A program made the position numbers and the translations under genes. From Geobacter sp. DSM 9736 (GTDB taxonomy: Bacteria > Desulfobacterota > Desulfuromonadia > Geobacterales > Geobacteraceae): a DNA stretch of 64,000 nucleotides. The notes beneath the pieces are model-generated. The model was not told where the DNA came from. It worked only from the letters and a program-made list of their open reading frames with translations, and did not search any database. Shown here in pieces: positions 29,685 to 46,365 of this stretch; positions within the stretch are counted from its first letter, which is position 1; each line of letters starts with the position of its first letter. The stretch is from contig NZ_LT896716.1 in assembly GCF_900187405.1 (NCBI RefSeq), forward strand, positions 2,174,001 through 2,238,000, in the 5' to 3' direction.

Positions 29685-31370
29685 TCAATCCCCCCCCGGC
29701 ATGATCGTCATCAGACTGGTACATCCTCTGGAGTCGGGCCCGGCACCTGAAAACTCTACCTTGTAACATGCGTGGGAATCGTTTTTCCCAGGCGCAGAGA
29801 ACGCCAGAGCATCCCTGCTCCCATTATTCTGGATATTGATCATATTCAGTATCATCTTAGCCCCGATTTCGGAGCGGGCATTCGTCATGTTCTGGGGGGA
29901 CCTCATGTTCACGACAGCATGTATGGGATTCTTCACCTTGTTCGCCCGCAGAAATGTTGCGACAGAAGTTATAGGCTCGGTATCGACCACGACATTCGAA
30001 CTCATGAGGAACAGGCTGGACTGCGGGTCACCATGGAGAGTTTGGGAGAGAGAAGACACAAAGGCTGTTATTGCTTGTGTATTCTGGGACCGGGCCTGCG
30101 CCGCTTCCCTCAGCTTCGGAATGTCGCTGCTGTAGACTAGAACAAAGCCCAGGACAGAAAGCGCCACCCGTGACCACTTCTCGGTGCCTATCCCCGGGAA
30201 CACAGTGGCGATTGCTTTAAGTGAAAAATGGAAGGCGATGAGCAGGAAGAACGGATACACCAGCAAGCCGGGAAAGTTATACCTGCCGAAGTTTTCGCTC
30301 GGCCAGTCGCCATTGTAGAACAGGAACTGGGTTACGTACAACATCATCAACAGCGCTGACAGAGTGAAAAAATTCAGACCCTGCTTCAATAACGGCTTCA
30401 ATGTCCCCTTGCGGGCGAGCAGCAGGTGAACCGACAACGAAAAAAGCACCGCAAGATAGAGAGCCAGGCAGATCAACACCTGATTATTGATGGCTCTTTC
30501 CACCCCGGAAGCCAGCAGTTCGATTCGCCCCCCAACACCGGTATCGTTGGCATAAATATCCTTCCCGGACCTGGTCATGGCCATTGTAACGGCAGTCGCT
30601 ACAAACACTCCATATCCAGCCATAAGGGCTGAGGCTATGGAAGCGGTCGCCGAGAGCACATTCTTTTTCCACAGCAGGCCGGGCAAAATGAGGATCGGGA
30701 CCATCAGGAACAGCATGTTCTCCTTGGCACCGAGAACTATGAACGAGCCGACAAGCATGATCAGCCAGTTCGAAAGTGCATTTACCCTTAAGCGATCACC
30801 CTCCCTCCAGGCTTCTCCCACTCTGGCAAAACCAAGAACATATAAGGCGCAACCGAACACGGCATACGTTTCGGCAGGGCCGAGGCGGGTCCATATGTCG
30901 GTCCAGAAGGGCAAACTGAAGATATATGCGGTAAAGAGCAGGGACGCCAGGAACCCCAGGTACCTGTCAAGCAGCCACCATACTATTGCCACTGAGAGGG
31001 CGAACAGGACTATCCTGCAGGCGTACCACAAGAAAGGGGAATCGCCCCAGAGAAAGGTCTCCATGATTCTCAGAAGCCAGTAGGATGGCCGGTACCTGGG
31101 AGATGTTCCGGGATTCGCCAACTCGGTTGCGGAAAGCAGTGCGGGAAGCCCGGTTATGCTGACATTTCCTGACGGACCGAGGAACCGTATTATCTCGTGG
31201 TCATCCAGAAAACCCCATTTTGCCTTGAGGTTGCTGCCCCAAAGGAAAAGGGAAAAAAGAGTCGAACCGGCCAGGATAAACCATGACTTAAACTTCGTTA
31301 ACGCCTGCAGGGTTAGCACATCTACATCTCCTCGAACAGGAATTGGTGAGTCACAAATCCGCGACGACAT
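29685..31370 (-). CDS. Polytopic membrane protein, probable GT-C-type glycosyltransferase
   Basis: The 561-residue protein has about eleven hydrophobic segments up to residue 430 and a soluble C-terminal part. FLDDHEIIRFLG near residue 55, in the first loop, resembles the acidic motif of lipid-phosphate-sugar-dependent GT-C transferases. It may add a sugar on the outer face of the inner membrane. Family assignment is tentative. It is the last gene of the polysaccharide locus, 12 bases after a methyltransferase gene. Confidence 0.68.
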   Translation of the reverse strand: MSSRICDSPIPVRGDVDVLTLQALTKFKSWFILAGSTLFSLFLWGSNLKAKWGFLDDHEIIRFLGPSGNVSITGLPALLSATELANPGTSPRYRPSYWLLRIMETFLWGDSPFLWYACRIVLFALSVAIVWWLLDRYLGFLASLLFTAYIFSLPFWTDIWTRLGPAETYAVFGCALYVLGFARVGEAWREGDRLRVNALSNWLIMLVGSFIVLGAKENMLFLMVPILILPGLLWKKNVLSATASIASALMAGYGVFVATAVTMAMTRSGKDIYANDTGVGGRIELLASGVERAINNQVLICLALYLAVLFSLSVHLLLARKGTLKPLLKQGLNFFTLSALLMMLYVTQFLFYNGDWPSENFGRYNFPGLLVYPFFLLIAFHFSLKAIATVFPGIGTEKWSRVALSVLGFVLVYSSDIPKLREAAQARSQNTQAITAFVSSLSQTLHGDPQSSLFLMSSNVVVDTEPITSVATFLRANKVKNPIHAVVNMRSPQNMTNARSEIGAKMILNMINIQNNGSRDALAFSAPGKNDSHACYKVEFSGAGPDSRGCTSLMTIMPGGD

Positions 31371-31382
31371 CCGCCGTCTGTA

Positions 31383-32072
31383 TCATTTTTTACTCGCCTT
31401 CAGGCATATGTTGAGCATGAGCGGTCCAAGGGACTGGCCGTAACGGTCGAACCATCGCAAAACAGGATTGAGCTGGGGAACAACGAACGGAAAAAGATGA
31501 ATCCCTTTCATCGAAATCACGGAGCAGCCGGAAGCTTCTACCCATGCCTTCAACTGCGGCCACCCAACCCAGTTCTCATACCCTTCATACGGCCTCAGCT
31601 TGAGAACATTTGCGATAGCTATGGCAGGGTGCCATACCCTGTTAGGCACAGTTATAACCAAGGTGCCACCGCTCTTCACGACCCGGCTCAGTTCCATGAC
31701 CGCTCTTTTCGGATCAGGGGTATGCTCAATGACCTCAGTCGAGATTACATAGTCGAAATGCCCGCTTTTGAAGGGAATGTCGAGCACGCTACCCACAACT
31801 TTATGCGAGTCGCATTTCGCGGCGACCTTCGAAAGAATATTTTCACCGACGTCCAATGAAACTACGGCTGCTCCCCTCACAGAGGCTTCCCTGCTGAACC
31901 AGCCTGTACCGCTCCCGCCGTCCAGCAGCAGCTTGCCCTGCAGATCCTCTGGAATGAGCTCCCTGAAAATCACGTCCAGCCGGCGATCCGTGTCGTACAT
32001 GTTCATCACGGAGTCGAAGTCGTCCGCGAACCGGTCGTAAAAGAACATCTTGTCGTCTTTGTCTTTTAACAT
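31383..32072 (-). CDS. Class I SAM-dependent methyltransferase
   Basis: The 229-residue protein has LLLDGGSGTGWFSRE (motif I, around residue 50), DIPFKSGHFDYVIS and EVIEHTPDP, the Methyltransf_11 (UbiE-like) pattern. It could methylate a sugar or lipid of the polysaccharide. Its ATG lies two bases after the stop of a 27-codon transporter remnant, whose end supplies the AAAGGG ribosome site. Confidence 0.85.
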   Translation of the reverse strand: MLKDKDDKMFFYDRFADDFDSVMNMYDTDRRLDVIFRELIPEDLQGKLLLDGGSGTGWFSREASVRGAAVVSLDVGENILSKVAAKCDSHKVVGSVLDIPFKSGHFDYVISTEVIEHTPDPKRAVMELSRVVKSGGTLVITVPNRVWHPAIAIANVLKLRPYEGYENWVGWPQLKAWVEASGCSVISMKGIHLFPFVVPQLNPVLRWFDRYGQSLGPLMLNICLKASKK

Positions 32073-32073
32073 T

Positions 32074-32157
32074 TCAACCCTTTGAGACGATCACTATTCC
32101 TGTAAGAATTATCATCATTCCGAAGATTATTGTCGCGGACATGCTTTCCTTAAGGAC
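32074..32157 (-). pseudogene. C-terminal remnant of an SMR/EamA-type transporter
   Basis: Directly after the TGA of the glycosyltransferase (32158-32160), in the same frame, 27 sense codons read VLKESMSATIIFG then MMIILTGIVIVSKG and a stop. This is the pattern of the last helix of small four-helix transporters (E...G..LI..G...). The rest of such a gene is missing, and there is no start codon with a ribosome site. DPM-like glycosyltransferases often neighbour lipid-sugar flippases of this kind, so a deletion that removed most of the flippase gene is the simplest reading. Confidence 0.6.
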
Positions 32158-33096
32158 TCATTCATCTTCACCATAGATATTGCGCACTATGTACATGGGC
32201 CTCGACTTGGATTCCGTATAGATCCTGTCAATATATTCACCGATGATACCGAGGCTCATAAGCTGGATTCCGCCGAGAAACAGTACGGATACGAGCACCG
32301 ACGCCCAGCCCGCAATAGTATAGTCCGAAAATAGCTTCATAATTATGGCATAGGCGGCATAGGCAAAACTGAACAGGGAAACCACCATCCCCATTATGGT
32401 AGACAGCTGCAACGGAAACGCTGAAAAGGATGTTATTCCGTCTATAGCGAATCTCAACATTTTGAGAAATGTATATTTTGTCGAGCCTGCATTGCGCAGA
32501 GACGCCTCATACGTAACTCCGCACCTCCTGAACCCTATCCAGTTGACCAGTCCGCGCAAGAACTTCGTCTTCTCCGGTAGCGACAAGAGATGATAGGCAG
32601 CCTTTCTGTCGAGAAGCCTGAAGTCGGCGCTGTTGTAGGGAATGTCTATCTTTGCGAGCAGGTTGACCAGTCGGTAAAAGAGGCGGGCCGTGATTTTTTT
32701 GAGAAAGGGTGTCCCCGCGGGATCATTCCTTACCGTGTAGACAACCTCGAAGCCCTCCTTCCATTTCATGACGAGCTGGGCTATAACTTCCGGGGGATGC
32801 TGAAGGTCGGCATCCATCATTATAACCGCATCCCCCTTGGCAGTGTCCAAACCTGCACAGATTGCGGCTTGATGCCCGAAGTTCCTGGAAAGCTCCACTA
32901 CTCTGACATTACGGTGTGCGTCCTGCAGGCCTTTAAGCACGTGCAGCGTCCTGTCGGTGCTTCCATCATCAACAAAAATTACCTCATACTCAAGGCCTAT
33001 AGCCGACATAGTGGACATGATTCTGCTCAGCAGAATCCCGACATTACTCTCTTCATTATGACAGGGCACCACAATGGAAATGCGCTTTTCACTCAT
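32158..33096 (-). CDS. Polyprenyl-phosphate glycosyltransferase (GT2, DPM1/GtrB-like)
   Basis: The protein has a GT2 domain (ISIVVPCHNEESN, FVDDGSTD, MMDADLQHPPEV) and two C-terminal membrane helices around residues 230-300, the layout of enzymes that put a sugar on undecaprenyl phosphate at the inner face of the membrane. The product is normally flipped and used by a GT-C enzyme, and such membrane enzymes flank it. The expected small flippase is only present as a remnant behind the gene. ATG 33096 has GGTGA upstream; GTG 33105 is the alternative start. Confidence 0.88.
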   Translation of the reverse strand: MSEKRISIVVPCHNEESNVGILLSRIMSTMSAIGLEYEVIFVDDGSTDRTLHVLKGLQDAHRNVRVVELSRNFGHQAAICAGLDTAKGDAVIMMDADLQHPPEVIAQLVMKWKEGFEVVYTVRNDPAGTPFLKKITARLFYRLVNLLAKIDIPYNSADFRLLDRKAAYHLLSLPEKTKFLRGLVNWIGFRRCGVTYEASLRNAGSTKYTFLKMLRFAIDGITSFSAFPLQLSTIMGMVVSLFSFAYAAYAIIMKLFSDYTIAGWASVLVSVLFLGGIQLMSLGIIGEYIDRIYTESKSRPMYIVRNIYGEDE

Positions 33097-33129
33097 CTCG
33101 GTCACCGATCACGACAGGAACACACCAAA

Positions 33130-35550
33130 TCATGCTGCAGCACGAAATCGCTTCCTCCACAGCTCCCATACGAGCATGCAGGCAAAGAGAAGGAAAGAGC
33201 TGAAGGTCAGGTATTTCCCGATCTTGTAAGGTTGCGGGTCGAACCGGAAAACGACTTGATGCTCTCCGGGAGGGAGGTAGACCCCTCGCAGAATATGATT
33301 CACCGGATAAATTTCCAGGTCCTTGCCGTCCGCGCTGGCCTTCCAGCCCCTGTAGTATTTTTCTCCCAGCACAAGAAGCGTGTTCTGCAGCGCCTTGACA
33401 GTGAGATCGATTCGGATGTCCTCATACCGTGTCACCTTGACCTCCCCGGGCGGGATGGCCTGAAGCGCTTCGGGAGAAGCCATCGGCAGGGGAGGAGGAG
33501 ACTCGACGAGAGCCATCCTTCGGGGATCGAACTCGGGATGCTGCATAAGGCCTAGAGTCTGCCGGTCATCCCCCGGCAAAAGCACCGACGATACGAGCCA
33601 CGCCTTAGGAAGGACCGCCCGGTTCTCCAGAACCACCTCGGAACCGTCGGGGGACCGGAAAACGGGTACGAACTTCTCCCCCATGTGCTGTTTTTCCTGT
33701 TCGTACTGCCTCCCCTCATACACAAGATACTTCACGTTGAGCATGTCGGGAATTGCAGAGGAAAAACTGAAGCTGTCGAGGATATCCTGCCACCTCTTCT
33801 GCTGCACCGGCATCGGGATGAACATTACCGGAATTTTCTTGCTGGAGAATGGCCCGGGGCCGCTGCTTACCGGAAGGACCCGGTACATATCCGACTGTTG
33901 TGACAAAAACTCTATGGCAGGGGTAGTGTAATTCTTCGTCTCCTTCGGAACGTCCACGAGGAACATGAACTTGTAATTCACCCTCCCTGTATCTGCAAGG
34001 TAAAGGGCAACAAGCACGAGAGGAGCAGCCACAGCGGGAATCCATCTTCTGGAGATGGCAAAAATCGCGGCTCCATATAGGGCTGCAACGGCAGCTGCGG
34101 CACCCGTCTCATAGATGATGTTGCCCCATCGCTGCATGACGAGGGCAGGGCCCTGCTCGTAACGGGTCGGCTGGGCAAGCATCTCTATGAACGATTCTAT
34201 CCAACGCTCCCTTCCCGCCATACCTATGCCCATGACGCCAAGAAGAAGCAGGGGGAGGACCGTGACGCCGCACAGGTACTTTCTGAACGCGCCGGTTTTT
34301 CTCGCGTCGGGGTCGAGAATCAGGTCGATTCCGCGGGCTGACAGAACCGCAAGGCCGAACACCGGAAGGAACATGATCATCTTCGGCACCCTGAACCTGT
34401 TCACTCCGGGGAAATAATCGAAAAGGAAGTTGTAGATGAGGGAGTATTTCCCCATTGAGAAGATGATCCCTCCCGCCACCGCAGCCAGCGCCAGCCACGT
34501 GTAGCGGTCCCGGCGGAAGATTAGAGGCAGCGGCAACAGAAGCCAGGGCAGCAGACCCATGTAGTCCGTCGTCTGGGTGAAGTTCATCCTCCCCCAGTAG
34601 TAGGACCTGATCCCGGGTGGATTCTCCCCGGCTTCCTGACGCGAGAAGCCGAAGAAGCCGGGGATGACGAAGGATGCCAGTTCCTCCGGTGGAAGGGACC
34701 AGGACATGGCCTCCTCCCGGTCCAGCCCCCCCTTCCCCTGATTGGCGCCGCTCTCGGCGCCGCGATTGGTGGAGACGGACCAATTGGCAAGGGGCATCAG
34801 GTCAATGGCGACCGTAGAGAGGAAGAAAAACATGGTGACCAGATTTAGAAGAACGAGCTTCGCCACCCCCCTGGCCGAACGCTCCCTCCCGGCGACAATG
34901 ATGCCGATTGACCGGCAGATGCCGTACACACCGATGCCGAGGCAGGTGTAGTAGGCGATCTGCCAGTGGCTGTACCAGAACTGAAACGCAAGCACGACGC
35001 CTGTCGTCATGAACAGGAGCGCCCGGCGTGACTGGAACCCCTTCTCGAAGAAGTAGAAGGCCCACGGGGCGACGCTGATGGTGGCGATCTTGAGGACGTG
35101 CCCCGCGTTTATCAGGGATGCATTCTCCGGTGCGATTGCGAAGATGAGGCCGCCGAGGAAGGAGCCCAGCGCCCCTACCCCGATAAGTCTGCAGCAGAGG
35201 TAGGTACCACATGCACCGAAAAAGAGGTGAAGAACGATAAACCACGCAACGCTCACCGGAGGCTGAAGAAAGTAATATATGAGGTTCGGCAGGAACAGGA
35301 ACTGCCCTCCGGTTCCTCCCCCCTCAAGGGTATTGCCGCTGTTGTTGTAGATGTCCCAGTCGGCGGTGAAATCGAACCTGAAGAAGTCGACGAAGCTCCG
35401 CTTCGAGAGATCGAGCACCGCCCAGTAATACTCGTTTATGATGTCCGGCGCCCGGATTATCTTGTCAGTAAAGAGGATTTCGTGGAAGTAGACGACCAGG
35501 ACCGCCAGCAGGATCGTCAAAGCCGCGAGATCTTTTTTCCGTTCCGTCAT
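33130..35550 (-). CDS. YfhO-family large membrane protein
   Basis: The 806-residue protein has about twelve membrane segments and a C-terminal periplasmic-type domain ending with a last helix before a KRFRAAA tail. The patterns LNAGHV-like (SLINAGHVLKIA) and YYRGWKASADG near the end are characteristic of the YfhO family, GT-C-type enzymes thought to glycosylate lipoteichoic acid or other envelope polymers from a lipid donor. ATG 35550 has GGAG seven bases upstream; the longer frame to 35634 is not family-like and overlaps the upstream gene. Confidence 0.85.
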   Translation of the reverse strand: MTERKKDLAALTILLAVLVVYFHEILFTDKIIRAPDIINEYYWAVLDLSKRSFVDFFRFDFTADWDIYNNSGNTLEGGGTGGQFLFLPNLIYYFLQPPVSVAWFIVLHLFFGACGTYLCCRLIGVGALGSFLGGLIFAIAPENASLINAGHVLKIATISVAPWAFYFFEKGFQSRRALLFMTTGVVLAFQFWYSHWQIAYYTCLGIGVYGICRSIGIIVAGRERSARGVAKLVLLNLVTMFFFLSTVAIDLMPLANWSVSTNRGAESGANQGKGGLDREEAMSWSLPPEELASFVIPGFFGFSRQEAGENPPGIRSYYWGRMNFTQTTDYMGLLPWLLLPLPLIFRRDRYTWLALAAVAGGIIFSMGKYSLIYNFLFDYFPGVNRFRVPKMIMFLPVFGLAVLSARGIDLILDPDARKTGAFRKYLCGVTVLPLLLLGVMGIGMAGRERWIESFIEMLAQPTRYEQGPALVMQRWGNIIYETGAAAAVAALYGAAIFAISRRWIPAVAAPLVLVALYLADTGRVNYKFMFLVDVPKETKNYTTPAIEFLSQQSDMYRVLPVSSGPGPFSSKKIPVMFIPMPVQQKRWQDILDSFSFSSAIPDMLNVKYLVYEGRQYEQEKQHMGEKFVPVFRSPDGSEVVLENRAVLPKAWLVSSVLLPGDDRQTLGLMQHPEFDPRRMALVESPPPLPMASPEALQAIPPGEVKVTRYEDIRIDLTVKALQNTLLVLGEKYYRGWKASADGKDLEIYPVNHILRGVYLPPGEHQVVFRFDPQPYKIGKYLTFSSFLLFACMLVWELWRKRFRAAA

Positions 35551-35611
35551 GAATGCTCCGTTAATCGCACAAAGGCGACATAAATAACTGCAGATTGTCG
35601 AAACCTGAACA

Positions 35612-36739
35612 CTACTTACCCCGTAGCTTCGCATCCTCCGCCACCTGCCGGTACAGAGAGAGGGTCCGCTGTGCCGCAGCGTCCCATGAAAACAGACGCG
35701 CCCGCTCCACCCCCCGCTCCCGCATCCGGGATGCCGTGCCCGCGTCGGTCAGCACTCTGCGGATAGCCAACGCCACCCCTTCCACATCAGTCGGAGGCAG
35801 CGCGATTCCCGCATCCCCGACAACTTCCGGTAGGGAAGTAGTGTCGGAAGTGATCACCGGCACTCCGCACGCCATGGCTTCGAGAGGAGGAAGACCGAAG
35901 CCCTCGAAGAGGGAGATGTAGACGAAGACGTTCGCACCACGGTAAATGTGGGGCAGGTCCTCGTCGGGTATGAACCCGGTGAAGACAATCTCCTCCTCCA
36001 GGCCAAGTTCGGTGATTCTGGCAAAGAGACGATCGTAGAGCCACCCCTTGCGCCCGACGATAACGAGCTTTTCCCTGACCTCCCCTTCCTTCCGGAGGCG
36101 AGCGAATGCTTCGATGAGCGTATCCAGGTTCTTGCGCGGCTGGATCGTCCCCACGTAAAGGATATACTTATCGGGCAGGTGGTAACGTTGCCGCACTGCA
36201 GCGCCATCCTCCGCAGCACCACCGTCCATGGCGGGGTCGAAGCCGAGCATTACCGCCTCGATCTTCCCGGCCGGGACCCCGAAATCCTCCATGATCTCCC
36301 GACGGGCGTGTTCCGAGTCGGTGATGATGAAGTCGCTCCGCCTGGCTGCAATCGGGATCTGCAACCGCCAGTAAACCCGGGCGGCGAACTTCTCCGTCTC
36401 CGGATGTTTGAGAGGGATCAGGTCGTGGAGCGTCACCACCACCGGGCAGGGGGAGAAAAGCGGAATCGCGCTCTTTGGGCAGTGGAGAATGTCGACCCGA
36501 TGGCGGCGACAAGCAAGGGGGAGCAGAACGTGCTCCCGGAAAAGACGCGATAGCGGTTTCTTTCCGGGCAGGACCTCCTCGATAGCACCACTGAAGCGGC
36601 CGAGGTGCGCCGGGTCGTTGTAGAATACGACGTACTCGTTCTCCCTATCGAGGCGCAGGAGCGCATCAAGAAGTCCGAGAACGTAGGTTCGCGGCCCCCC
36701 CTGGGTGGAAATCGTGGAAGCGTCGATGGCAATGCGCAC
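35612..36739 (-). CDS. GT4-type glycosyltransferase
   Basis: The 375-residue enzyme has the GT-B fold of GT4: an N-terminal domain opening MRIAIDASTISTQGGPRTYV, and the donor-binding domain with YVGTIQPRKNL, FVYISLFEGFGLPPLEAMACG and SLPEVVGDAG. The EGFGLPPLE block carries the acidic residues that hold the nucleotide. It starts with GTG at 36739, overlapping the stop of the preceding GT2 gene (TAGTG), so translation is coupled. Sugar and acceptor are unknown. Confidence 0.88.
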   Translation of the reverse strand: MRIAIDASTISTQGGPRTYVLGLLDALLRLDRENEYVVFYNDPAHLGRFSGAIEEVLPGKKPLSRLFREHVLLPLACRRHRVDILHCPKSAIPLFSPCPVVVTLHDLIPLKHPETEKFAARVYWRLQIPIAARRSDFIITDSEHARREIMEDFGVPAGKIEAVMLGFDPAMDGGAAEDGAAVRQRYHLPDKYILYVGTIQPRKNLDTLIEAFARLRKEGEVREKLVIVGRKGWLYDRLFARITELGLEEEIVFTGFIPDEDLPHIYRGANVFVYISLFEGFGLPPLEAMACGVPVITSDTTSLPEVVGDAGIALPPTDVEGVALAIRRVLTDAGTASRMRERGVERARLFSWDAAAQRTLSLYRQVAEDAKLRGK

Positions 36740-37554
36740 TACTGCTCCTTATGGCTCCCCTGCTTCCGGACCTTGTTGAACCGGGGATGGAGACGTATGA
36801 GGGAGTGGATTCCGAGCTTTCTCAGCATGTTTTTGGTGCCGACCATGACAGCGCGGTACATGAACCAGAAAGCGGCCTGTGCCCTGGGATAGCCGTACCG
36901 CCTCGTTACCCGGTAAAACTCCCGCAGGACCTGCCAAGTCCGAGCGTCGCTTTCGCCGCCGTAGCGCATGGCGGCAAGAGGCAGCTCGACATAATAGAAC
37001 CTGCAGCCTTCGATGTAAAGCCGCAGGATGAGGTCGTAGTCCATGGTGACCCGCAGATCCGTGTCGAAGAGGCCAGCGGTTTCGTATCCCCTGCGGGTCA
37101 CGAAAGTGGCCGGATGGTTCACCGGCATCTCCCTCCATATGTTCGGGCCTACGGGCGTAGGCTTCAGGAGGAAGAGCGGTACGTCATTCTCCATCCTTAT
37201 CATGTCCCCGTGGAAGACATCGCACTCCGGATGCGCCTCCCGAGCCAGGGCCACGGCCTTAAAGGCGCCCGGGCAGTAGGTGTCGTCGGAGTTGATGATC
37301 CCGATGATCTCGCCGCAGGCCATGCGGATCCCCTTGTTGAAGGCGTCCGAAATCCCATCGTCGGCTTCCGAGATCCAGCGAATCCGCCCATCCCGTGCGG
37401 CGTTTTCCGCAATGATACTGAGGGTGCCGTCCGTCGATCCCCCATCGACGATTATATACTCGAAAGAAGGGAAGTCCTGCCCGAGGACGCTGTCGATGGT
37501 CTCCTGCAGGTAGCGGCTGCTGTTCCAGGTCACTGTGATGATGGAGAACTTCAT
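36739..37554 (-). CDS. GT2-family glycosyltransferase
   Basis: From ATG 37554 the 271-residue enzyme reads MKFSIITVTWNSSRYLQETI, then VDGGSTDGT and NSDDTY (the DxD-like metal motif), with the acceptor part following. It has the WcaE/colanic-type layout. The ATG lies one base after the stop of the GT4 gene before it (TGAAATG). The longer frame to 37668 lies inside that gene and is rejected. Confidence 0.87.
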   Translation of the reverse strand: MKFSIITVTWNSSRYLQETIDSVLGQDFPSFEYIIVDGGSTDGTLSIIAENAARDGRIRWISEADDGISDAFNKGIRMACGEIIGIINSDDTYCPGAFKAVALAREAHPECDVFHGDMIRMENDVPLFLLKPTPVGPNIWREMPVNHPATFVTRRGYETAGLFDTDLRVTMDYDLILRLYIEGCRFYYVELPLAAMRYGGESDARTWQVLREFYRVTRRYGYPRAQAAFWFMYRAVMVGTKNMLRKLGIHSLIRLHPRFNKVRKQGSHKEQ

Positions 37555-37555
37555 T

Positions 37556-38704
37556 TCACCCCACCGCCTCACGATAGACCTGGAGGGTCTTTTGTGCAGT
37601 TTCTTCCCACGTGAAGAGCTTCGCCCGCTGTAGCCCCAGGGCGGCCATATCCCGGCGCAGGCCGTCATCTGCCCAGACGCGGCCTACCTTCTCCGCAATG
37701 TCCTCCACCGAATAGGGATCGAACAGAACGCCCGCCTCCCCCGCCACTTCGGGGAGGGAGGTGGCACGGGCACAAACGACGGGACAGCCGCAAGCCATGG
37801 CTTCCACAAGAGGAATTCCGAACCCCTCGAAGAGTGAGGGGAAGACGAGCGCCCGGGCCAGGTTGTAAAGTAGGGGGAGGTCCACGGCGGGAACGTAGCC
37901 GAGGAGCTGAATCTCCCCGGCCAGACCCTGGCGATCGATCTCCCGCAGGACCTCTCCGTGGGACTGCATCGCAATTCCCGTCAGAAGGAGCCTTCCGTCG
38001 AAACCCTGCTCCTTCAGCAGGCGCAGTGCGGCAAGTAGCCTTCCGTGGTTCTTGTGAGGCCATGTGGCTGCCGGATAAAAGAGGAAGGGGCGATCCAGTC
38101 CATACCGCCGCCGCACCTCCTCCAGCGCCGGCTCATCCTCTATCACCCGATACACCGGTCCGTAGCCGGTATGGATGACGTGGATTTTCCCCTCCTCGAT
38201 CCCGTACCGCTCCACGAGGCAGTCTTTGGTAAACGAGGCACTGACGATGATGCGTGTTGCTTCGCGGGCGGACGCAGGATATATTCTGCGCCGCTTGCGC
38301 AGTTCCACCTGATTGAAAAATTCGGGGAAAAACTCGTGCTGCATGTCCCAGAAGGTGAGAACGGAAGGGGTGCGGATGCCGGGAGGGGTTAACACGGTAA
38401 AGGGATGATGAATCACATCCAGATCAAGCGACTTCATCTCCCTAACAAGGATGTCCACGTTGACCGTGTTCCGCAAAAGCCCCCGCAGAAACCAGTTGAG
38501 AGAGGGTTTGCCGTAGTTGATCGCCCTGGTTCCCCACCTGTCGTTGTGGAGCGGGATCTCCCCGGCGACCCGCCGGTCGCACAGGATGGTGTAATCGTTC
38601 TCGCAATCGATCTGCTGGAGACGGTCGAGCAGGTTGCGGAGATATGTCTCCATCCCCCCCATCGCACCGGGAGCGAACGTAATTGCGCTAAGACCTATCT
38701 TCAC
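37556..38704 (-). CDS. GT4-type glycosyltransferase
   Basis: The 382-residue enzyme starts at GTG 38704 within the stop of gmd (GTGA overlap). It opens VKIGLSAITFAPGAMGGMET and shows FYPAATWPHKNH, VFPSLFEGFGIPLVEAMACG and TSLPEVAGEAG, the GT4 donor-site blocks. The large upstream extension of the frame to 39007 is in gmd and is not real. Position next to gmd suggests a GDP-sugar donor such as GDP-rhamnose or GDP-mannose; this is inference. Confidence 0.88.
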   Translation of the reverse strand: MKIGLSAITFAPGAMGGMETYLRNLLDRLQQIDCENDYTILCDRRVAGEIPLHNDRWGTRAINYGKPSLNWFLRGLLRNTVNVDILVREMKSLDLDVIHHPFTVLTPPGIRTPSVLTFWDMQHEFFPEFFNQVELRKRRRIYPASAREATRIIVSASFTKDCLVERYGIEEGKIHVIHTGYGPVYRVIEDEPALEEVRRRYGLDRPFLFYPAATWPHKNHGRLLAALRLLKEQGFDGRLLLTGIAMQSHGEVLREIDRQGLAGEIQLLGYVPAVDLPLLYNLARALVFPSLFEGFGIPLVEAMACGCPVVCARATSLPEVAGEAGVLFDPYSVEDIAEKVGRVWADDGLRRDMAALGLQRAKLFTWEETAQKTLQVYREAVG

Positions 38705-39699
38705 CCGGCGGCTCCGGCAGACTTCTCGCGGTCGCGGTAGAGTGCGAGTTCGGCCTCCACCATTGTTTTGAGCAGCGTCTGGAAATCGATGGTGCGGGAC
38801 CAACCGAGCCGCTGGATGATCCTTGACGGGTTGCCGCACAGGGGAACCTTCTCCGCCGGGCGAAAGAGCTTCGGATCCGTATGCACGTACTGGCGGTAGT
38901 CGAGCCCGAGAAAGGAGAAGACGTGGGAAACGAATTCCCGGACCGTGTGTGTCTTCCCGGTGGCAACAACGTAATCGTCGGGTGATTCCCCCTGAAGCAT
39001 GAGCCACATGGCGTTCACGTAGTCGGGGGCATATCCCCAGTCGCGGGAGGCGTCGAGATTGCCGAGGGTTAGGGATTCCAGAAGCCCGAGCTTGATCTTT
39101 ACCGCCGAGGAGACGATCTTCCTGGTGACGAATTCGTAGCCGCGGCGGGGGGACTCGTGGTTGTAGAGGATCCCGGAGCAGGCGAACATCCCGTACTGCT
39201 CACGGTAGTTCTTCACCAGGTGGTAACTGGCCACTTTTGATATCCCGTAGATGGAGCGGGGATTGAAGGGAGTGCTTTCATCCTGGGGCGCCGAGGAGAC
39301 TGTGCCGAACATCTCGCTCGTCCCGGCAAAGTAGACGCGGCATTCAGGAGCAAACTCCTTGATGGCCGCAAGGAGATAGTGAGTGCTGTCAACGTTGTTG
39401 TTGATTATGGAAATCTCGTCCTCGAAGGAATAGCTTACGAAGCTGGAAGCTGCCAGGTGGTAGCACTCGTCCGGAACAAGATCCTTTATCACCTTTATCA
39501 TGGAAAGGACGTTGTCCAGGGATGCCACATGGAGGTGGACCTTGTCCAGGATGTGGCGCAGGTTTTTCAGCTTGTGCTCGGTGTCCTCTATGGCGATCCG
39601 GCGCACGATGCCGTGGACTTCGTACCCCTTGGCGAGGAGGAGATCGGCGAGGTACGAACCGTCCTGCCCTGCAATGCCGGTAATAAGCGCTTTTTTCAT
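38701..39699 (-). CDS. gmd: GDP-mannose 4,6-dehydratase
   Basis: The 332-residue extended SDR enzyme has the NADP-binding GIAGQDG (8-14), the catalytic TSE (127-129), Tyr151 and Lys155 in YGISK, and the family stretch HESPRRGYEFVTRKI. It makes GDP-4-keto-6-deoxymannose, the precursor of GDP-rhamnose, GDP-fucose and perosamine. None of the following enzymes (RMD, GMER or an aminotransferase) is in the window. It overlaps the methyltransferase upstream by four bases and the GT4 gene downstream by four. Confidence 0.92.
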   Translation of the reverse strand: MKKALITGIAGQDGSYLADLLLAKGYEVHGIVRRIAIEDTEHKLKNLRHILDKVHLHVASLDNVLSMIKVIKDLVPDECYHLAASSFVSYSFEDEISIINNNVDSTHYLLAAIKEFAPECRVYFAGTSEMFGTVSSAPQDESTPFNPRSIYGISKVASYHLVKNYREQYGMFACSGILYNHESPRRGYEFVTRKIVSSAVKIKLGLLESLTLGNLDASRDWGYAPDYVNAMWLMLQGESPDDYVVATGKTHTVREFVSHVFSFLGLDYRQYVHTDPKLFRPAEKVPLCGNPSRIIQRLGWSRTIDFQTLLKTMVEAELALYRDREKSAGAAG

Positions 39700-40496
39700 A
39701 GGTTCGTTCCTTTCTGGGAATGCCCCGTAACCCGCAGGTAGTCGTCCGGCACCAGGCAGGTCCGGCGGAAGAAGGGTGCCAGGAAGATAGCCGACTTGTA
39801 CGTGGTGGCGAGCCGGAAGAGAATCGGGGAGATCTTCCGCTCAGTCAGAAGGTGCCGCCGCTTTCCGTCTGAGTAGAGGCGCAGGCCAAGCCGGCGCGCC
39901 AGGGCAGTCAACGACTGTTTCGTATAGAACGACACATGCTGCCCGTGATCGAGGCCGTAGTACCACCAGTCGCCGGGAGCCGGCGGAGGGTCCGGGACCA
40001 GTTCGGTCGTAAAGAAGATCGAGCGGGAGAAACGGAGCATCTGTTCGACCTCCGCGACCGGGTCCACGAGGTGCTCAAACAGCTCCATGGCGGTCACCAG
40101 CTCGAAACCGCCGCTGTCTCCGTTGGCTTCAAAGCCTTCGGCGAACAGGTTCTCGCAGTGGCGGTCGTAGCGGTAGAAGTCGAAACCCCGGTCCCGCATC
40201 ATCCGCACGAAGAGTCCGTACCCTCCCCCGTAGTCCACGAACCGGCCATCCCCCCGGAAGGAGGTACCGATAAGCGCCTGGATAATTGGAATGCGTCGCA
40301 TGTTGCGCTGCACGAGCCCCACGTCAGCCTTGGTGATGGCCTGACTGTAGGCTTCATCGAGCCAGTAGGGTTTCTCGGTGCTGATGAACCCGCAGGCCCC
40401 GCAGCGATTGAAGGCGACGTTGTGCTTCCCGAGAATGGTGGCCCGGAAAATCTCCGCGACAGTCCCTCCGCCACAGATTGTACATCCTGCGCTCAT
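39696..40496 (-). CDS. SAM-dependent methyltransferase with N-terminal zinc ribbon
   Basis: The 266-residue enzyme starts MSAGCTICGG and has a second pair CGACG near residue 31, forming a CxxC...CxxC ribbon. Then comes a Methyltransf_23-type core with FVDYGGGYGLFVRMM (motif I) and ELFEHLVDP. The layout is that of sugar C-methyltransferase-like proteins in polysaccharide loci. The ATG at 40496 overlaps the GT4-like gene upstream by four bases; the longer frame to 40754 is inside that gene. Confidence 0.85.
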   Translation of the reverse strand: MSAGCTICGGGTVAEIFRATILGKHNVAFNRCGACGFISTEKPYWLDEAYSQAITKADVGLVQRNMRRIPIIQALIGTSFRGDGRFVDYGGGYGLFVRMMRDRGFDFYRYDRHCENLFAEGFEANGDSGGFELVTAMELFEHLVDPVAEVEQMLRFSRSIFFTTELVPDPPPAPGDWWYYGLDHGQHVSFYTKQSLTALARRLGLRLYSDGKRRHLLTERKISPILFRLATTYKSAIFLAPFFRRTCLVPDDYLRVTGHSQKGTNL

Positions 40497-41662
40497 GCCC
40501 CTGCCCCTCGTACCAGCGCCGCCAAGGCATCTTCCAGAGTGCGCGAGTAACCCTCGCGGGTAAATGATCCGGCCGCGAAGGCACCGGTCGCCTCCATCAT
40601 CTCTCTCCTGTCGCCGTCGGAAAGCGCAGCCATCGAAAGCACCGCCTCCTCGATTTCCTCCACCGAACAGGTATCCAGTACACGTCCCACACCGGCCGGC
40701 AGCGTGATGCCGCAGTTCGCGCTGAGGATCGGGATCATGCCGTGCTGCATGCATGTGATGGCGGAGGTGGACATTCCCTCGCTGCAGGAAGGGCTGATAA
40801 AGAAACCGGTCCGGGCAGCGATCTGCCTGAACTTCTTTCCCGCAGGGTAGAGAAAGCCGTGGCTGCGGATATTCGGAAGCTCCGTCAGTTCCCTCCGGTA
40901 CGAGCTGACGAAATCATCCTCTTTCAGGTACGGACCCACTACGTGGAGGGTAAGATCCCGATGCCGTGCGAAGACCTCCAGGACGAGATCCAGTCCCTTG
41001 TGCACGGCTCCCTGGCCGTTGAACCAGAGAAATTCCCGTCCATTGCCCCGCAGGTCCGGTGCGGAGAGAGAGGGCAGATAGGAGCCGGTGGCGCAGATGC
41101 ACCGCATCTTTCTCCGGATATGCTCGGGGAAAGTTCCCGCAGTCGTCTCGTTCCCCACCAGCAGGATCAGGTCCGCACGCTCCAGGTTTGCGTTGAATGT
41201 CCGGATTTCTTCCTCGCCTATCTTTCGCCGGGGCTTAAGGGATGCCCCCCGCCGCCTCGCCACGGCGTCAAGCCGCTCCTGCTCGGCGCGATTTGAAAAA
41301 GAGGGATTGCTCCCGGTAACGTAGAATACAGCACTGCTTCGGGGCGCGGAATAGCGGGAAAGGTTCCCGTGAATGTCGAACACGATGTCGTAGACAGCCG
41401 GTGGAACGAAGGAAGCGTCGCGCCAGTTGAGCAGGTCAACCCGGTAACCGAGCCGGTTGAAGGTGGCCACCACCTCTGCGCTCTCCCAGACGTTGGAGTG
41501 CCCCTTGAAGAAAGCCGGGTCTCCCACCAGCGGCAGCGGCATGTAGCTGACGAGGGCCGAGCCCCGTGAAGGAGCGCACTTGTTCCGGTAAAGGCCCATG
41601 ACCCGTCGGGGGCGGAACCGGTCCGCCATCACTTGCAGCTTGTAAATCATCTCTATGACCAT
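40493..41662 (-). CDS. GT4-like glycosyltransferase
   Basis: The 389-residue protein has the C-terminal GT-B half with LWFNGQGAVHKGLDLVLEVF, LHVVGPYLKEDDFV, GFFISPSCSEGMSTSAITCM and an ends-in-coil tail. The usual EGFGLP block is changed to SEGMSTS, so it is a divergent member. The N-terminal half carries YVTGSNPSFSNRAEQ. It is probably cytoplasmic. It lies in the gmd operon, 18 bases after a methyltransferase gene. Confidence 0.78.
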   Translation of the reverse strand: MVIEMIYKLQVMADRFRPRRVMGLYRNKCAPSRGSALVSYMPLPLVGDPAFFKGHSNVWESAEVVATFNRLGYRVDLLNWRDASFVPPAVYDIVFDIHGNLSRYSAPRSSAVFYVTGSNPSFSNRAEQERLDAVARRRGASLKPRRKIGEEEIRTFNANLERADLILLVGNETTAGTFPEHIRRKMRCICATGSYLPSLSAPDLRGNGREFLWFNGQGAVHKGLDLVLEVFARHRDLTLHVVGPYLKEDDFVSSYRRELTELPNIRSHGFLYPAGKKFRQIAARTGFFISPSCSEGMSTSAITCMQHGMIPILSANCGITLPAGVGRVLDTCSVEEIEEAVLSMAALSDGDRREMMEATGAFAAGSFTREGYSRTLEDALAALVRGAGA

Positions 41663-41680
41663 AAAAGCCGTGTCTTCGCC

Positions 41681-42310
41681 TCAGCGGATGCTTAGCTTGA
41701 AAATGAACTGGACCGCCAGCAGGCCACACATGAGCGGCCCGCACAACCGCGGGAATCGGGAGATGTACCTGCGCTCCTCGATGACGAACCCGCAACGATC
41801 TATCATCTCCCGGGCGCTCGCATCGGTAAAGAAACGAAGGTGGGTCCGGTCCATGATCCCGGTGTCCCGGTACTCGAACCTCCCGAAGAGAAGCCGTAAT
41901 CGGAGGCTGTAATTCGCTATGTTCGGCAAGGACAGTATCACCTTTCCCGAAGGAGCCAGCAGATCTCTCGACTGCGAAAGGAGACGGTATGGGTTTTTGA
42001 GATGTTCGAGAACATCCCCGAAGATGATCAGGTCGTACCGCTCCGGCCCGTGAGGGAGCGGCTCGTTGTCCAGGTCCATGCATCGGAACCAGTCAAGTCT
42101 GTCGGCTGCAAGCTTTCCTGCCTCCGGTGAAGCGTCCACTCCATGAACGACCGCTTTCGGATTTATTTTTCGGATGGCAGCCCCGAGGGCTCCGGCTCCG
42201 CAACCGATATCGAGGACCCGCTCCTCTCCCTCGTAAAGTTCGAGGATTTTGGGATTGGCATTCTCATATACCTTGAGTCCTTCAAAATCTTGCACGGCTC
42301 CATTCTCCAT
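41681..42310 (-). CDS. Class I SAM-dependent methyltransferase
   Basis: The 209-residue protein has VLDIGCGAGALGAAIRK (motif I at about 32-48), YDLIIFGDVLEHLKNP and a hydrophobic C-terminal stretch (LMCGLLAVQFIFKL) that may touch the membrane. It is of the Methyltransf_23 type. The start codon shares a base with the stop of the upstream GT2 gene. Confidence 0.85.
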   Translation of the reverse strand: MENGAVQDFEGLKVYENANPKILELYEGEERVLDIGCGAGALGAAIRKINPKAVVHGVDASPEAGKLAADRLDWFRCMDLDNEPLPHGPERYDLIIFGDVLEHLKNPYRLLSQSRDLLAPSGKVILSLPNIANYSLRLRLLFGRFEYRDTGIMDRTHLRFFTDASAREMIDRCGFVIEERRYISRFPRLCGPLMCGLLAVQFIFKLSIR

Positions 42311-43155
42311 CAGCTGTTCCGCCTCGCATCCACACTGCTGTCGCTCCGCCAGAAGGAAAAGGGAACCTGCAGGCTCATCCCAACAGGGAAGAGCGCATTT
42401 ATCCGCAGCTGAAAGTCACGGTCACTGAAGGGCACCAACCGCCTCCTCCTGTCAGGCTCATATCCACCAGCCGCCTGCCAGGCTGATTTCAGAAACGTGC
42501 TGCCGGAATGAGTCATGTTAAGGTCGTTGTAACGCCGATAAGAAAGAACCTCTTCCGGGTTCTTGACTATAAGTTCCATGCGGGCAGGATCCTGATATTC
42601 AGATATGAGCAGCCGGTCTCCAACGGCAGCGAAATCGGTAAAATGGATACTGTGCCCACCAATGAGAAAGACATCCTGATAACGGCCAAACAGCTTGAAC
42701 ATGACCTCCACAGCGTCGAGCATAAGATAGTCATCGTCATTAAGAATCATTATTACTTCGGATGAAGCCGCTTCTATTCCCAGATTGAGGGATTCGGCCT
42801 GTCCGCGGTTGTGCGGATTGCGTAGTATCGTGCACGCAATGCCGTTTGCTGCAAACGCTGGCGCCAACGCTGCGAGGATTTCCCCTGTAGCGTCGGGAGA
42901 ATGGTCCTCGACAAATACAACCTCGTCCGGGGGCCGGGTCTGCTTCAGCAGGCTTTCCGCAGCCTGTTCCAGATACTGCGCATGCCCGTAACAGGGAACG
43001 ACGACGGCAAGGGATTTGACATCACCCTTTCCCCGCTGCGGCAACCCTCGCCCCTGCATCGCATCGAGGTAGTTACGAATTTTCTTTTCCGGAATATCCG
43101 CACTGCGGATGAAGCTCCTGAGCAGGCGGTACAGAAAAAGCTTGAGCGAATACAT
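42310..43155 (-). CDS. GT2-family glycosyltransferase
   Basis: The 281-residue enzyme has a basic amphipathic N-terminus (about 1-45), then LAVVVPCYGHAQYLEQA, VFVEDHSPDATG and MILNDDDYLM with the metal-binding acidic residues, and SDRDFQLRIN near the end. Sugar and acceptor are unknown. It follows the wzx gene by 40 bases. Confidence 0.85.
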   Translation of the reverse strand: MYSLKLFLYRLLRSFIRSADIPEKKIRNYLDAMQGRGLPQRGKGDVKSLAVVVPCYGHAQYLEQAAESLLKQTRPPDEVVFVEDHSPDATGEILAALAPAFAANGIACTILRNPHNRGQAESLNLGIEAASSEVIMILNDDDYLMLDAVEVMFKLFGRYQDVFLIGGHSIHFTDFAAVGDRLLISEYQDPARMELIVKNPEEVLSYRRYNDLNMTHSGSTFLKSAWQAAGGYEPDRRRRLVPFSDRDFQLRINALFPVGMSLQVPFSFWRSDSSVDARRNS

Positions 43156-43195: not shown

Positions 43196-44530
43196 TCATA
43201 TCTCTCTCAGTGCCTTTAAGAAAAAGAGCCCCTTCACCTGAAGATAAAATATCTCTCTGGTCCGGGGGTGAATCAGGTTCAGAATCACTGAAGAGAAAGC
43301 CTGCGAAATCACCGTGGCTACCGCCGCACCCATGACGCCGTATGCCGGAATGAGGATTATGTTCAGGGCGACGTTGATAATGGCGCCGAAAGCCATCCTG
43401 AAAAGCGCAAGCCGCGTCAGGTTCTCCGCAAGATCCCACGGACTCTGGGCAACGCCGTAAAAGACAAAGAGAGAAGCCCAGATATGTACGGCCAGGACCG
43501 GTCCGGCGGCAGCATATTGCTCCCCGAACAGCGGAACCACGACCAATGAGGCGAGAAAGGTCATCGGCACCGCAATGGAGAAAGAAAGAGCAGCCATGAA
43601 GCTGAACAGGCGCTGCATCCGTCTATAGTAGAGGCTCTCATCCTTTTCCCTCGCACGAATCACTGAGGGGAAAATGGAGGAAACGATCGCCATCGGAATG
43701 AAATACCATACCTCGGACATTTTCGTGGCTGCGGAGTAAATGCCGACTGCCTGGTCCCCCGCCATCTTGCCGAGCATCACCAGGTCGATCTTCATGTACA
43801 CAGCGATCGAGAGGCCGCTGAGGATCAGTGGCCAGCTGTCGGCCAGGAGTGATCTGCATCGGGCGCCCCTTACCAGCCATTCGCGGATTCTCCCTCCATT
43901 TCTCCGGTAGAAGAATACAAGCCCCGCCGCCGCCAGTACGAGCTCCAGAAGTGCGGCCCAAGCGAAAAAGATGAGGGGCGCGCCCCTGAGAATCAGGATT
44001 GCCTTCAGAAACGCCGCGATGATGAACGCCCCGTTTTTCGCCATAACGGTGTACTTCGACAACACCCGGGACTGGAACCAGAAATCTATCACATCGAGCG
44101 TCTGAAACAGCGTACCGATGGAGATGATCATCACCATCAGCCGGGGAAGCTCTTCCCCTTGCCGCAGCAGCGAAATGATTCCTGCCGCGGAAACGATCGT
44201 GACAAGGCTTCCCGCGAGCCGCAGGAAGATTGCGGAACCGAGTATTTCCCGCCTATCGTCCGGATGGCGGACCAGCTCGCGCACCACTATCCCGTCAAGC
44301 CCGAGGGTTGAAAATGCCGCAAAAAGGGCGACAAACGCGGTGGCGAAATTCAGAAGCCCAAATTGCGACGGCCCCAGGTAGCGCGCCACCCACACACTTA
44401 CCAGCAGCCCTATCCCCATCCGGATGATACGGTCGGCAAAAAGCCAGCCGGTATTGGCAATTATCCCCTGCAGGGCCTGCCGACCCTCAAGCTTCCTGCG
44501 GATGAACTCCGGAAGCGGCCACCTGTTCAT
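43196..44530 (-). CDS. Wzx-type polysaccharide flippase
   Basis: The 444-residue protein has about twelve to fourteen membrane helices and the opening WLFADRIIRMGIGLLVSVW followed by RYLGPSQFGLLNFA, the signature of the Polysacc_synt (MOP) family. It would flip undecaprenyl-diphosphate-linked repeat units to the periplasm. Its ATG overlaps the stop of the winged-helix regulator (ATGA), so the regulator heads this operon. No Wzy polymerase was recognised, although one of the unassigned membrane proteins could fill that role. Confidence 0.88.
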   Translation of the reverse strand: MNRWPLPEFIRRKLEGRQALQGIIANTGWLFADRIIRMGIGLLVSVWVARYLGPSQFGLLNFATAFVALFAAFSTLGLDGIVVRELVRHPDDRREILGSAIFLRLAGSLVTIVSAAGIISLLRQGEELPRLMVMIISIGTLFQTLDVIDFWFQSRVLSKYTVMAKNGAFIIAAFLKAILILRGAPLIFFAWAALLELVLAAAGLVFFYRRNGGRIREWLVRGARCRSLLADSWPLILSGLSIAVYMKIDLVMLGKMAGDQAVGIYSAATKMSEVWYFIPMAIVSSIFPSVIRAREKDESLYYRRMQRLFSFMAALSFSIAVPMTFLASLVVVPLFGEQYAAAGPVLAVHIWASLFVFYGVAQSPWDLAENLTRLALFRMAFGAIINVALNIILIPAYGVMGAAVATVISQAFSSVILNLIHPRTREIFYLQVKGLFFLKALREI

Positions 44531-45132
44531 GCAGCCCCGATGGAGTGCAGTGCGTCATCGGACACCCCCAGATCCAGGAGCCGTTTTCTGAGCATCTCAC
44601 CCTTCTTTACCGATGTAATGACGATCCGGTAGTGCCCGGCAAGAAGCCCTTTGGCGACAGTGACAACAGGCCGACCGAAGAAATTATCCCCGGCCCGTTC
44701 GTCATCCATCGCGAACAGAAGCTCTATCCCCGTCCCTTGCAGCGACAGATATGCTATCTCCGCCACCTCATCCACTCCGCAAAACACAATCTTTTCGACT
44801 CCTTTAGCCTGAAGCGAGCGGAAAAGCTTCACGTAGTCCTGCCGCGCAGTCGTGTAGAGGTTGGTGAAATAGCTCAGGTGCTGGTACGCCAGCCGGCTTT
44901 TCTCCGTCACCCCTTGTGGAGTGAGCAGGTAGCCGTAACGATTCTTAGGGAAATTCTTCACCCGGATGTAGCCCTTGGCGACAAGGTTTTTTATATAGGA
45001 ATTGACGAGGCCGAGGGCGATACCGAGCCGCCGCGAAAGCTCCCGTTGGGAAAGGGGCTCCTCCTTGGCGATCTCCGCCAGAAGTAGGAACGAGCGGTAA
45101 GTATCCAGGATTTTTTCGTCGTTGCTGTTCAT
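44527..45132 (-). CDS. Winged-helix regulator with Rossmann-like domain, first gene of the wzx operon
   Basis: The 201-residue protein has a winged helix-turn-helix at about 10-75 (PLSQRELSRRLGIALGLVNS, then YLLTPQG) and a second domain (about 95-201) with GVEKIVFCGVDEVAEIAYLS and FAMDDERAGDNFFG. The latter resembles the N-terminal nucleotide-binding part of PglD-type sugar acyltransferases and may sense a sugar nucleotide. Such regulators often open exopolysaccharide operons. Start ATG 45132 is set by a promoter that ends seven bases before it; no ribosome site is present. Confidence 0.82.
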   Translation of the reverse strand: MNSNDEKILDTYRSFLLLAEIAKEEPLSQRELSRRLGIALGLVNSYIKNLVAKGYIRVKNFPKNRYGYLLTPQGVTEKSRLAYQHLSYFTNLYTTARQDYVKLFRSLQAKGVEKIVFCGVDEVAEIAYLSLQGTGIELLFAMDDERAGDNFFGRPVVTVAKGLLAGHYRIVITSVKKGEMLRKRLLDLGVSDDALHSIGAA

Positions 45133-45139
45133 GCGGTGA

Positions 45140-45168
45140 ACAATACAGCAAGATTGGGGGAGAGGCAA
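45140..45168 (-). promoter_or_regulatory. Promoter giving a predicted leaderless mRNA for the wzx operon
   Basis: TTGCCT (45168-45163), 17 bases, then TATTGT (45145-45140) on the minus strand. Seven bases (TCACCGC) lie between the -10 box and ATG 45132. It would drive the regulator and the genes down to 29.7 kb. Confidence 0.55.
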
Positions 45169-45255
45169 ATGTTTTTCGGAGTTACCGGATGCGGGGGTAG
45201 GTGAAGCAGTCGGGACAAAACTTCACCCTGCACACTTCAAAAGGAAGCACCCTCT

Positions 45256-46365
45256 TCAAATCTGCCCCGGGCTGCCCGCGGAACGCAGGGGCCTGCGGAG
45301 AGAAGTCATGAAGATGGCAAGAATCACCTTCATCATGTAGTAGAGGCCGGTGATGCCGGCGATGGAGGAGTCGCCGCCGGTTCGCTCGCGCATTATGGTA
45401 GACGCCTCGGCTATGCGGAAGCCGTTCTTGCCTAGAAGTATAACGGCTTCAGGCTCCGGGTAGTCCACCGGGTAATATCGCGCAAGGAACTCTATGGTTT
45501 CGCGGTCGTAGGCACGAAAGCCTGACGTGTTGTCGGTTATGCGCTGGCCTATGAGCAGGGAGTTCAAGACCTGGAAGAGCCGAATGCCGATGCGGCGCAC
45601 GAAGGTGGAGCGAAACCCCTCCCTCCCCCCGAGGAAGCGGGAACCGATAGCCATGCTGGCTCCCCCGTCGATGAGGAGGTCGAGGAGCTTGCGGATTTCC
45701 TCCGCCCGGTGCTGCCCATCACCGTCAAATTGAATTGCGATCTGATACGCATTTCGAAGTGCATACTTGAAGCCGGTCTGGACAGCGCCCCCGATCCCGA
45801 GGTTCGTCGGAAGATCCACAACGAGGGCCTCTCCGGTAGAGCGTGCAGCCTCCCCAGTGTTGTCCGCTGAACCGTCATTGATCACGAGGATGTCGAGGTC
45901 GGTGCTGATGCTTTTCAGATCATGAATCACCCGGACAATGTTCACTTCCTCGTTATATGCCGGGACTATTACAAGGATGTCGGCCTTTTTTTTCGAAGCC
46001 GCATACGGATCGCCCGCGAGCTCGGCCTGCAGACGTCCGAGCCCCAGTTCCTGGATCAGCTCCGCATTCTGCTCCGAAAGCCGGGTGATGACGACGGTGA
46101 TGTGAATGAGGACCAGGAAGACGAAAGCCGTTATGATGAGCATGAGGATGCTCGGCTTATAGGCAATGCCGAAAAGGCCTCCAAGCCGGTCGATTGCGAA
46201 ACGGTCGAGAGAAAGGTAGAGGAAGAAAAGGCTCATCATGAACCAGACGATGGAGTATTCTTCCTTCATGCGCCGATGCTTCACGAGCTCGAATATGAAC
46301 GCGAAGATGCCGAGACTGAAGATGATGGCTACTACCTGGATTTTGTCTATGCCCGCAAAGGCCAT
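45256..46365 (-). CDS. DUF2304 domain fused to a GT2 glycosyltransferase
   Basis: The 369-residue protein starts with three membrane helices (about 9-30, 38-56 and 72-95), the DUF2304 domain. A cytoplasmic GT2 domain of the DPM1 type follows from about 129 (ILVIVPAYNEEVNI, VINDGSADNT, FDGDGQH). These two parts are usually separate neighbouring genes; here they form one chain. It likely transfers a sugar to a polyprenyl phosphate at the membrane. GGAG precedes the ATG. The gap of 119 bases upstream and 123 downstream make it a separate unit from the wzx operon. Confidence 0.85.
   Translation of the reverse strand: MAFAGIDKIQVVAIIFSLGIFAFIFELVKHRRMKEEYSIVWFMMSLFFLYLSLDRFAIDRLGGLFGIAYKPSILMLIITAFVFLVLIHITVVITRLSEQNAELIQELGLGRLQAELAGDPYAASKKKADILVIVPAYNEEVNIVRVIHDLKSISTDLDILVINDGSADNTGEAARSTGEALVVDLPTNLGIGGAVQTGFKYALRNAYQIAIQFDGDGQHRAEEIRKLLDLLIDGGASMAIGSRFLGGREGFRSTFVRRIGIRLFQVLNSLLIGQRITDNTSGFRAYDRETIEFLARYYPVDYPEPEAVILLGKNGFRIAEASTIMRERTGGDSSIAGITGLYYMMKVILAIFMTSLRRPLRSAGSPGQI

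Follow-up and report, generated by a model that had tools for sequence, protein, structure and literature searches.

Why should the first gene of a long polysaccharide operon appear to have no leader, and what holds its transcription start and its start codon together? The question is raised by a regulator gene of Geobacter sp. DSM 9736, found in a stretch of 64,000 nucleotides of contig NZ_LT896716.1 (positions 2,174,001 to 2,238,000), called hereafter "the window", to which all coordinates refer.

The locus and the predicted leaderless start

The regulator gene is the first of 14 ORFs that form a tight run of about 15.4 kb on the minus strand (45132 to 29685), in agreement with an earlier sequence-only reading that had placed it at the head of a 15-kb wzx operon. 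Further genes on this strand lie upstream of it. The genes concerned are the following:

44527–45132, minus strand: regulator, 201 aa (Pfam HTH_24, MarR_2 and MarR above cut-off)
43196–44530, minus strand: wzx-type flippase (Polysacc_synt, 2.2e-29), with a 4-base ATGA overlap with the regulator stop
29685–43155, minus strand: remaining polysaccharide run, 12 ORFs with gaps of at most 85 bp and some overlaps that come from first-start ORF calls
45256–46365, minus strand: upstream DUF2304 + GT2 gene, 123 bp before the regulator, a possible source of read-through

Glycosyltransferases, methyltransferases and GDP-mannose dehydratase-like functions are found in the 12-ORF run, where two of the 12 names were checked with Pfam and the others come from reading the translations. 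Read-through from the upstream gene could provide an additional, leadered transcript. Between that gene and the promoter, an inverted repeat without a T-run, GGTGAAG...CTTCACC, is located at 45200–45227.

Ahead of the regulator, the minus strand reads TTGCCT (45168–45163), 17 nt, TATTGT (45145–45140), TCACCGC and ATG (45132–45130), which are the letters of the motif TTGCCT-17-TATTGT-TCACCGC-ATG recorded in the earlier reading. Three elements are distinguished in it:

45163–45168, minus strand: −35 element TTGCCT, assigned by sequence and ortholog spacing; its TTG is the rival upstream start
45140–45145, minus strand: −10 element TATTGT, whose final two bases also open the putative operator O1 (see below)
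45130–45132, minus strand: start codon ATG, predicted leaderless, with the predicted transcription start at its A (45132)

The regulator ATG had also been described as lacking a ribosome site, and no Shine-Dalgarno-like motif of the list used was indeed detected upstream of it. The promoter matches the sigma-70 consensus at 8 of 12 positions; a promoter scan of 44900–45400 that required at least 9 of 12 found no promoter. A relaxed TTG-TA-ATG scan of the window retrieved two other starts of ORFs of at least 80 aa, at 23356 and 28133. Taken in one genome, the motif is weak and not beyond chance.

Orthologous loci were picked by protein similarity, independently of the promoter and palindrome DNA. 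Protein matches were present in 49 of 58 genomes (own genome counted, two of the matches being weak). A first set of 47 loci was extracted and aligned on the start codon, a second consisted of 80 named loci from a species collection (the best 80 of 251 relatives), and a third of 19 loci from the class and the family (20 regions extracted, 90 of 195 class genomes matched). The 146 loci were reduced to 106 distinct ones by dropping 40 that were identical over 50 nt around the start. Four weak or partial match rows (G023, G044 and the second matches of G002 and G009) and L214, a paralog in G002, were left out of the ortholog counts. L204 was anchored on the operator copy at its start (9/10), not on its upstream copy. 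Upstream counts were made on the 105 orthologs with at least 130 nt of upstream DNA, L109 having too little.

All 105 orthologs have a TTG placed 17 bp (82 cases) or 18 bp (23 cases) before the TA of the −10, and their start codon falls on the seventh or eighth base after the −10 hexamer, the eighth in the window. A short list of Shine-Dalgarno-like motifs (GGAG, GAGG and AGGA, 16 to 5 nt upstream of the start) found no match in any of the 105, and a looser list flagged four of 47 orthologs. Information content over the 105 orthologs was 1.50 bits on average for the TA of the −10, and 0.12 bits for the promoter spacer. In the otherwise free spacer, a T five bases before the −10 (45150 in the window, nine bases upstream of the operator) was observed in 45 of 47 orthologs. 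Compared across relatives, at the level of sequence, the motif is far beyond chance.

A pyrimidine-purine step is the usual initiator of transcription start, and a pyrimidine directly precedes the start codon in 89 of 106 orthologs. The start codon is ATG in 100 of the 106 and GTG in the other six. GTG starts are poor on leaderless mRNA in E. coli, and these six orthologs would count against a leaderless start.

Translation could alternatively proceed from TTG 45168, on a conventional transcript begun further upstream; this TTG is in frame with the regulator, and the reading frame is open in the window. The orthologs speak against such a start, which is extremely improbable: an in-frame stop is present at most 36 nt upstream of the ATG or GTG in 34 of 105, so that the TTG is excluded as a conserved start. 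Moreover, the spacer behind it is hardly constrained, and the TTG coincides with the conserved −35. A start downstream of 45132 was rejected as well, the next in-frame start codon of the window regulator being codon 58, within the HTH region. A leaderless start at 45132 is therefore likely and the most economical reading. For this claim of the sequence-only reading, the comparison provides good support, by the constant position of the start (105/105), the missing GGAG, GAGG or AGGA (0/105) and the upstream stops (34/105).

A palindrome that includes the start codon

A palindrome absent from the earlier reading was found at the start of the regulator gene:

45127–45141, minus strand: putative operator O1, GTTCACCGCATGAAC (GTTCA-N5-TGAAC), from the −10 end across the predicted +1 into codon 2

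The same palindrome surrounds the start codon in all 106 distinct orthologs, 100 times perfect and six times with one mismatch. Per position, information amounts to 1.94 and 1.98 bits in its two arms, versus 0.14 for four of its centre bases and 0.12 for the promoter spacer, and the left arm GTTCA, upstream of the predicted +1, is conserved like the right one. The first base of the start codon directly precedes the right arm TGAAC, which makes the codon ATG or GTG. Codon 2 is AAC in 105 of 106 orthologs, whereas Asn elsewhere in the protein, counted over 80 orthologs, is encoded 337 times by AAC (64%) and 188 times by AAT, which indicates a constraint on the DNA rather than on the protein. The best reading of the palindrome is an operator to which the regulator itself very probably binds.

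Of 105 orthologs, 39 have a second copy of the palindrome (at least 9/10) shortly before the −35, versus 0 of 105 and 0 of 103 in control stretches of equal length. It occurred at four distances only, −49 (20 cases), −50 (11), −60 (seven) and −70 (one), and this copy, which is free of coding, tends toward YGTTCA-N5-TGAACA. No second operator was found in the window itself. Such a position just upstream of the −35, together with a promoter that is weak by consensus, would suit a protein that activates its promoter from the upstream copy and exerts negative feedback from the copy at the start codon. However, 66 of 105 orthologs, window included, have kept the promoter and O1 without an upstream copy, and activation is, in our estimate, unlikely.

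The search was extended to 44 distant homologs of the protein within the phylum (L216–L259), taken from 62 match rows after leaving out three that were already among the orthologs and 15 that were weak or short; L227 belongs to a genome already represented among the 106 orthologs. A site of at least 9/10 was present near the gene start in 27 of the 44, versus one of 44 for a control stretch taken within the gene. None was found near the gene start in the other 17, of which L216 has no upstream DNA. Reading of the listings showed that the palindrome holds an in-frame ATG in ten distant homologs (L218–L222, L227, L234, L236, L237 and L244), and that in several others, among them L224, L230, L232 and L241, it lies on the promoter, with the gene start further downstream. 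As several distant homologs carry sites at leadered starts, the operator appears to be wider than the leaderless start.

The spacings between operators in distant homologs include 39, 47, 48 and 52. They weaken the case for a strict helical phasing of two sites (−49/−50, −60, −70), which is clean within the orthologs and is kept here as a hint only. Two palindromes are placed back to back without a gap in L228 and L244, each with an ATG in L244, and three operator copies precede one gene in L222 and L236 (48 + 48 bp or 39 + 52 bp apart). A variant, ATTCA-N5-TGAAA, was observed in homologs devoid of the standard site (L233, L235, L238 and L239), where it follows a TTGAC promoter-like element and lies at the ATG or shortly ahead of it. 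It possibly reflects a shift in operator specificity.

These observations bear on the role that the sequence-only reading had assigned to the leaderless start. Leaderless translation was proposed there to be the selected feature, by which the output of the operon would track the state of the ribosome or of initiation factors. The geometry common to the 105 orthologs and their missing ribosome sites agree with it. Beyond this geometry the proposal found no support, the conserved element being a DNA palindrome that recurs off start codons. Its left arm would lie outside a leaderless RNA, yet is conserved like the right arm, and the palindrome recurs upstream of the −35 as well as on promoters in distant homologs in which the gene begins further downstream. 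An autoregulatory operator therefore accounts better for the geometry, and we consider ribosome sensing very unlikely. Among the genes of the operon, leaderless translation would directly affect the regulator only.

The palindrome might also be the site of another, global regulator, the winged-helix protein being a passenger or binding elsewhere. Its distribution argues against this. A strict pattern of promoter and operator, searched in 43 genomes, gave 27 matches, one in each of 27 genomes and all at the regulator gene, and none in the eight genomes without the gene; read backwards as a control, it gave one match. Six gene-bearing genomes were missed by the strict pattern, owing to elements one base nearer or further or to a mismatch, and two of the 43 had only weak and partial matches to the regulator protein. 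The surroundings of 80 orthologs, 904,541 bp in total, contained only two further perfect sites, versus 0.86 expected at equal base frequencies. In addition, the site accompanies the protein in the 27 distant homologs mentioned above. A global regulator is thus quite unlikely, and the simplest reading of the link between site and gene is a local autoregulator, which would bind the palindrome and repress from it.

The perfect palindrome alone was searched in the own genome, the other genomes being searched with the strict promoter pattern only. It has ten sites there, and O1 is the one at a gene start. Among the other nine, eight are inside ORFs and one (L055) lies across an ORF end; near-matches in the window were at chance level (four found, 1.74 expected). 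A regulon in the own genome was rejected on these grounds. The weak paralog L214 of G002 has no site, so that the site is not general to MarR_EPS-like proteins.

The regulator protein and its neighbours

The protein passes the curated Pfam cut-offs of the MarR and winged-helix superfamily, with scores (cut-offs in parentheses) of 45.1 (21.9) for HTH_24, 36.3 (27) for MarR_2 and 28.5 (24.6) for MarR. Its predicted architecture is a winged helix-turn-helix (residues 1–70 approximately), a long helix (72–109) and a Rossmann-type domain (112–201 approximately). The best model of the whole protein had a pLDDT of 88.7 and a pTM of 0.66, and the other four models ranged from 73 to 80. The N-terminal part of the model matches PadR and MarR structures, and the long helix would be suited to dimerisation.

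The family MarR_EPS (TIGR04176), linked to exopolysaccharide by its name, matches all 73 orthologs scanned. The window protein scores 69.3 bits with it, below the curated cut-off of 88. The match covers residues 14–106; the profile has 105 positions and leaves the C-terminal domain outside. This domain was considered separately:

44530–44811, minus strand: C-terminal domain alone (residues 108–201), candidate ligand sensor by its predicted fold

Sequence searches of this domain in Pfam and the PDB gave no useful match, and a fold search was therefore used. Modelled alone (pLDDT 91.2, pTM 0.83), the domain matched 2g6t (Z 12.4, rmsd 2.3, 90 aligned), succinyl-CoA synthetase alpha chains (Z 11.3 and below), a WbaP domain (8t53; Z 10.9, rmsd 2.9, 89 aligned), Rex (Z about 10) and the sugar acyltransferases PerB/WeeI (Z 9.4–9.9), most rows being tied and a common fold being no proof of function. 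Rossmann-type domains of such kinds bind nucleotides or nucleotide sugars, which makes a metabolite of the pathway a plausible signal. The order of a winged helix followed by a Rossmann domain is that of the Rex redox repressors, which matched the whole model with a Foldseek value of 1.6e-5. In contrast to Rex, to which identity is low (12–18%), the regulator family has an invariant Asp121 in place of the second glycine of GxGxxG, the usual glycine motif of Rossmann domains, and NAD binding is therefore not to be assumed.

A gene following the regulator could be called by a crude ORF rule in 76 of 80 ortholog loci. The commonest Pfam families of its product were NAD epimerase/GDP-mannose dehydratase (22 of 76), nucleotidyl transferase (17 of 76) and polysaccharide flippase (12 of 76). 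The next-gene families vary, and the regulator thus appears to precede different sets of surface-polysaccharide genes.

Proposed repression and known systems

The best explanation for these results, which we hold to be probable, is a homodimeric repressor of its own operon, bound at GTTCA-N5-TGAAC over the promoter and the start. The regulator homodimer would cover the palindrome, which reaches from the last bases of the −10 over the predicted +1 as far as codon 2, and would block RNA polymerase at the promoter of the regulator, flippase and glycosyltransferase run. The right arm (rTGAAC) would double as start codon and codon 2, so that the starts of transcription and translation would coincide and the regulator mRNA would be leaderless. 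In many relatives, the second operator just upstream of the −35 may permit binding in pairs. Repression would be tuned through the C-terminal Rossmann-type domain, the most likely role of which is to bind a small molecule, a nucleotide sugar or a dinucleotide of the pathway being plausible.

Autoregulated repressor genes of a phage and of a transposon are exemplified by lambda cI and by tetR of Tn1721, which, unlike the window regulator, are mobile-element genes with unrelated proteins and operators. Both are named as leaderless in a study of the acuR-acuI-dddL operon of Rhodobacter sphaeroides, the first gene of which encodes the repressor of its own operon (PMC3017554). According to the same account, the acuR transcript starts, by 5' RACE, exactly at the regulator AUG without a Shine-Dalgarno sequence, translation of the leaderless first gene is lower than that of the genes downstream, and a similar arrangement is reported in other bacteria (PMC3017554). 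AcuR is of the TetR family, answers to acrylate and has an operator, TAATAGAC-N6-GTCTATTA, over the promoter (PMC3017554). In the present case too, the regulator gene comes first, an inverted repeat overlaps the promoter (O1, in 106/106 orthologs), and the Shine-Dalgarno sequence is missing from a promoter predicted to place +1 at the start codon (105/105), all this being known here from sequence geometry alone. Differences from what is described for acuR are that start codon and codon 2 are part of the right arm, that the regulator combines a winged helix with a Rossmann domain, and that the operon is a polysaccharide one.

CrtR of Corynebacterium glutamicum resembles the window regulator in being of the MarR type, with a gene reported to be leaderless and a palindromic site over the promoter elements (PMC5401885). 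In contrast, it is described there as divergent from its target operon, which consists of carotenoid genes, and its autoregulation as poorly understood (PMC5401885). A search of titles and abstract openings, in which subscription journals were mostly uncovered, found no published account of the regulator or of its palindrome, and a literature search for TIGR04176 found no paper. Autoregulated leaderless operons being already known from AcuR, what differs here is the type of regulator, the operon, and an operator into which the start codon and codon 2 are built.

A wider proposal can be made tentatively, and we rate it as somewhat doubtful. A family of two-domain feedback repressors might exist across the phylum, each member sensing nucleotide sugars of the pathway by a Rossmann domain like those of polysaccharide enzymes and controlling no operon but its own, a surface-polysaccharide one. 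One large branch would have an operator that has captured the start codon, a single 15-bp element then setting transcription start, translation start and repression, and fixing the first two codons across a class.

Surface polysaccharides matter for the biofilms of Geobacter-like bacteria, and for their control a precise prediction is now available that names the site, the protein and a candidate sensor domain. The same operator on leadered and leaderless promoters forms a natural series in which the origin of leaderless regulator genes can be asked; such genes may be a by-product of operator placement rather than ribosome sensors. A leaderless-like arrangement is also seen elsewhere in the window, at 23356 on the plus strand, where TTGACC-N17-TATAGT lies seven bases before the ATG of a 120-aa ORF with a signal-peptide-like N-terminus.
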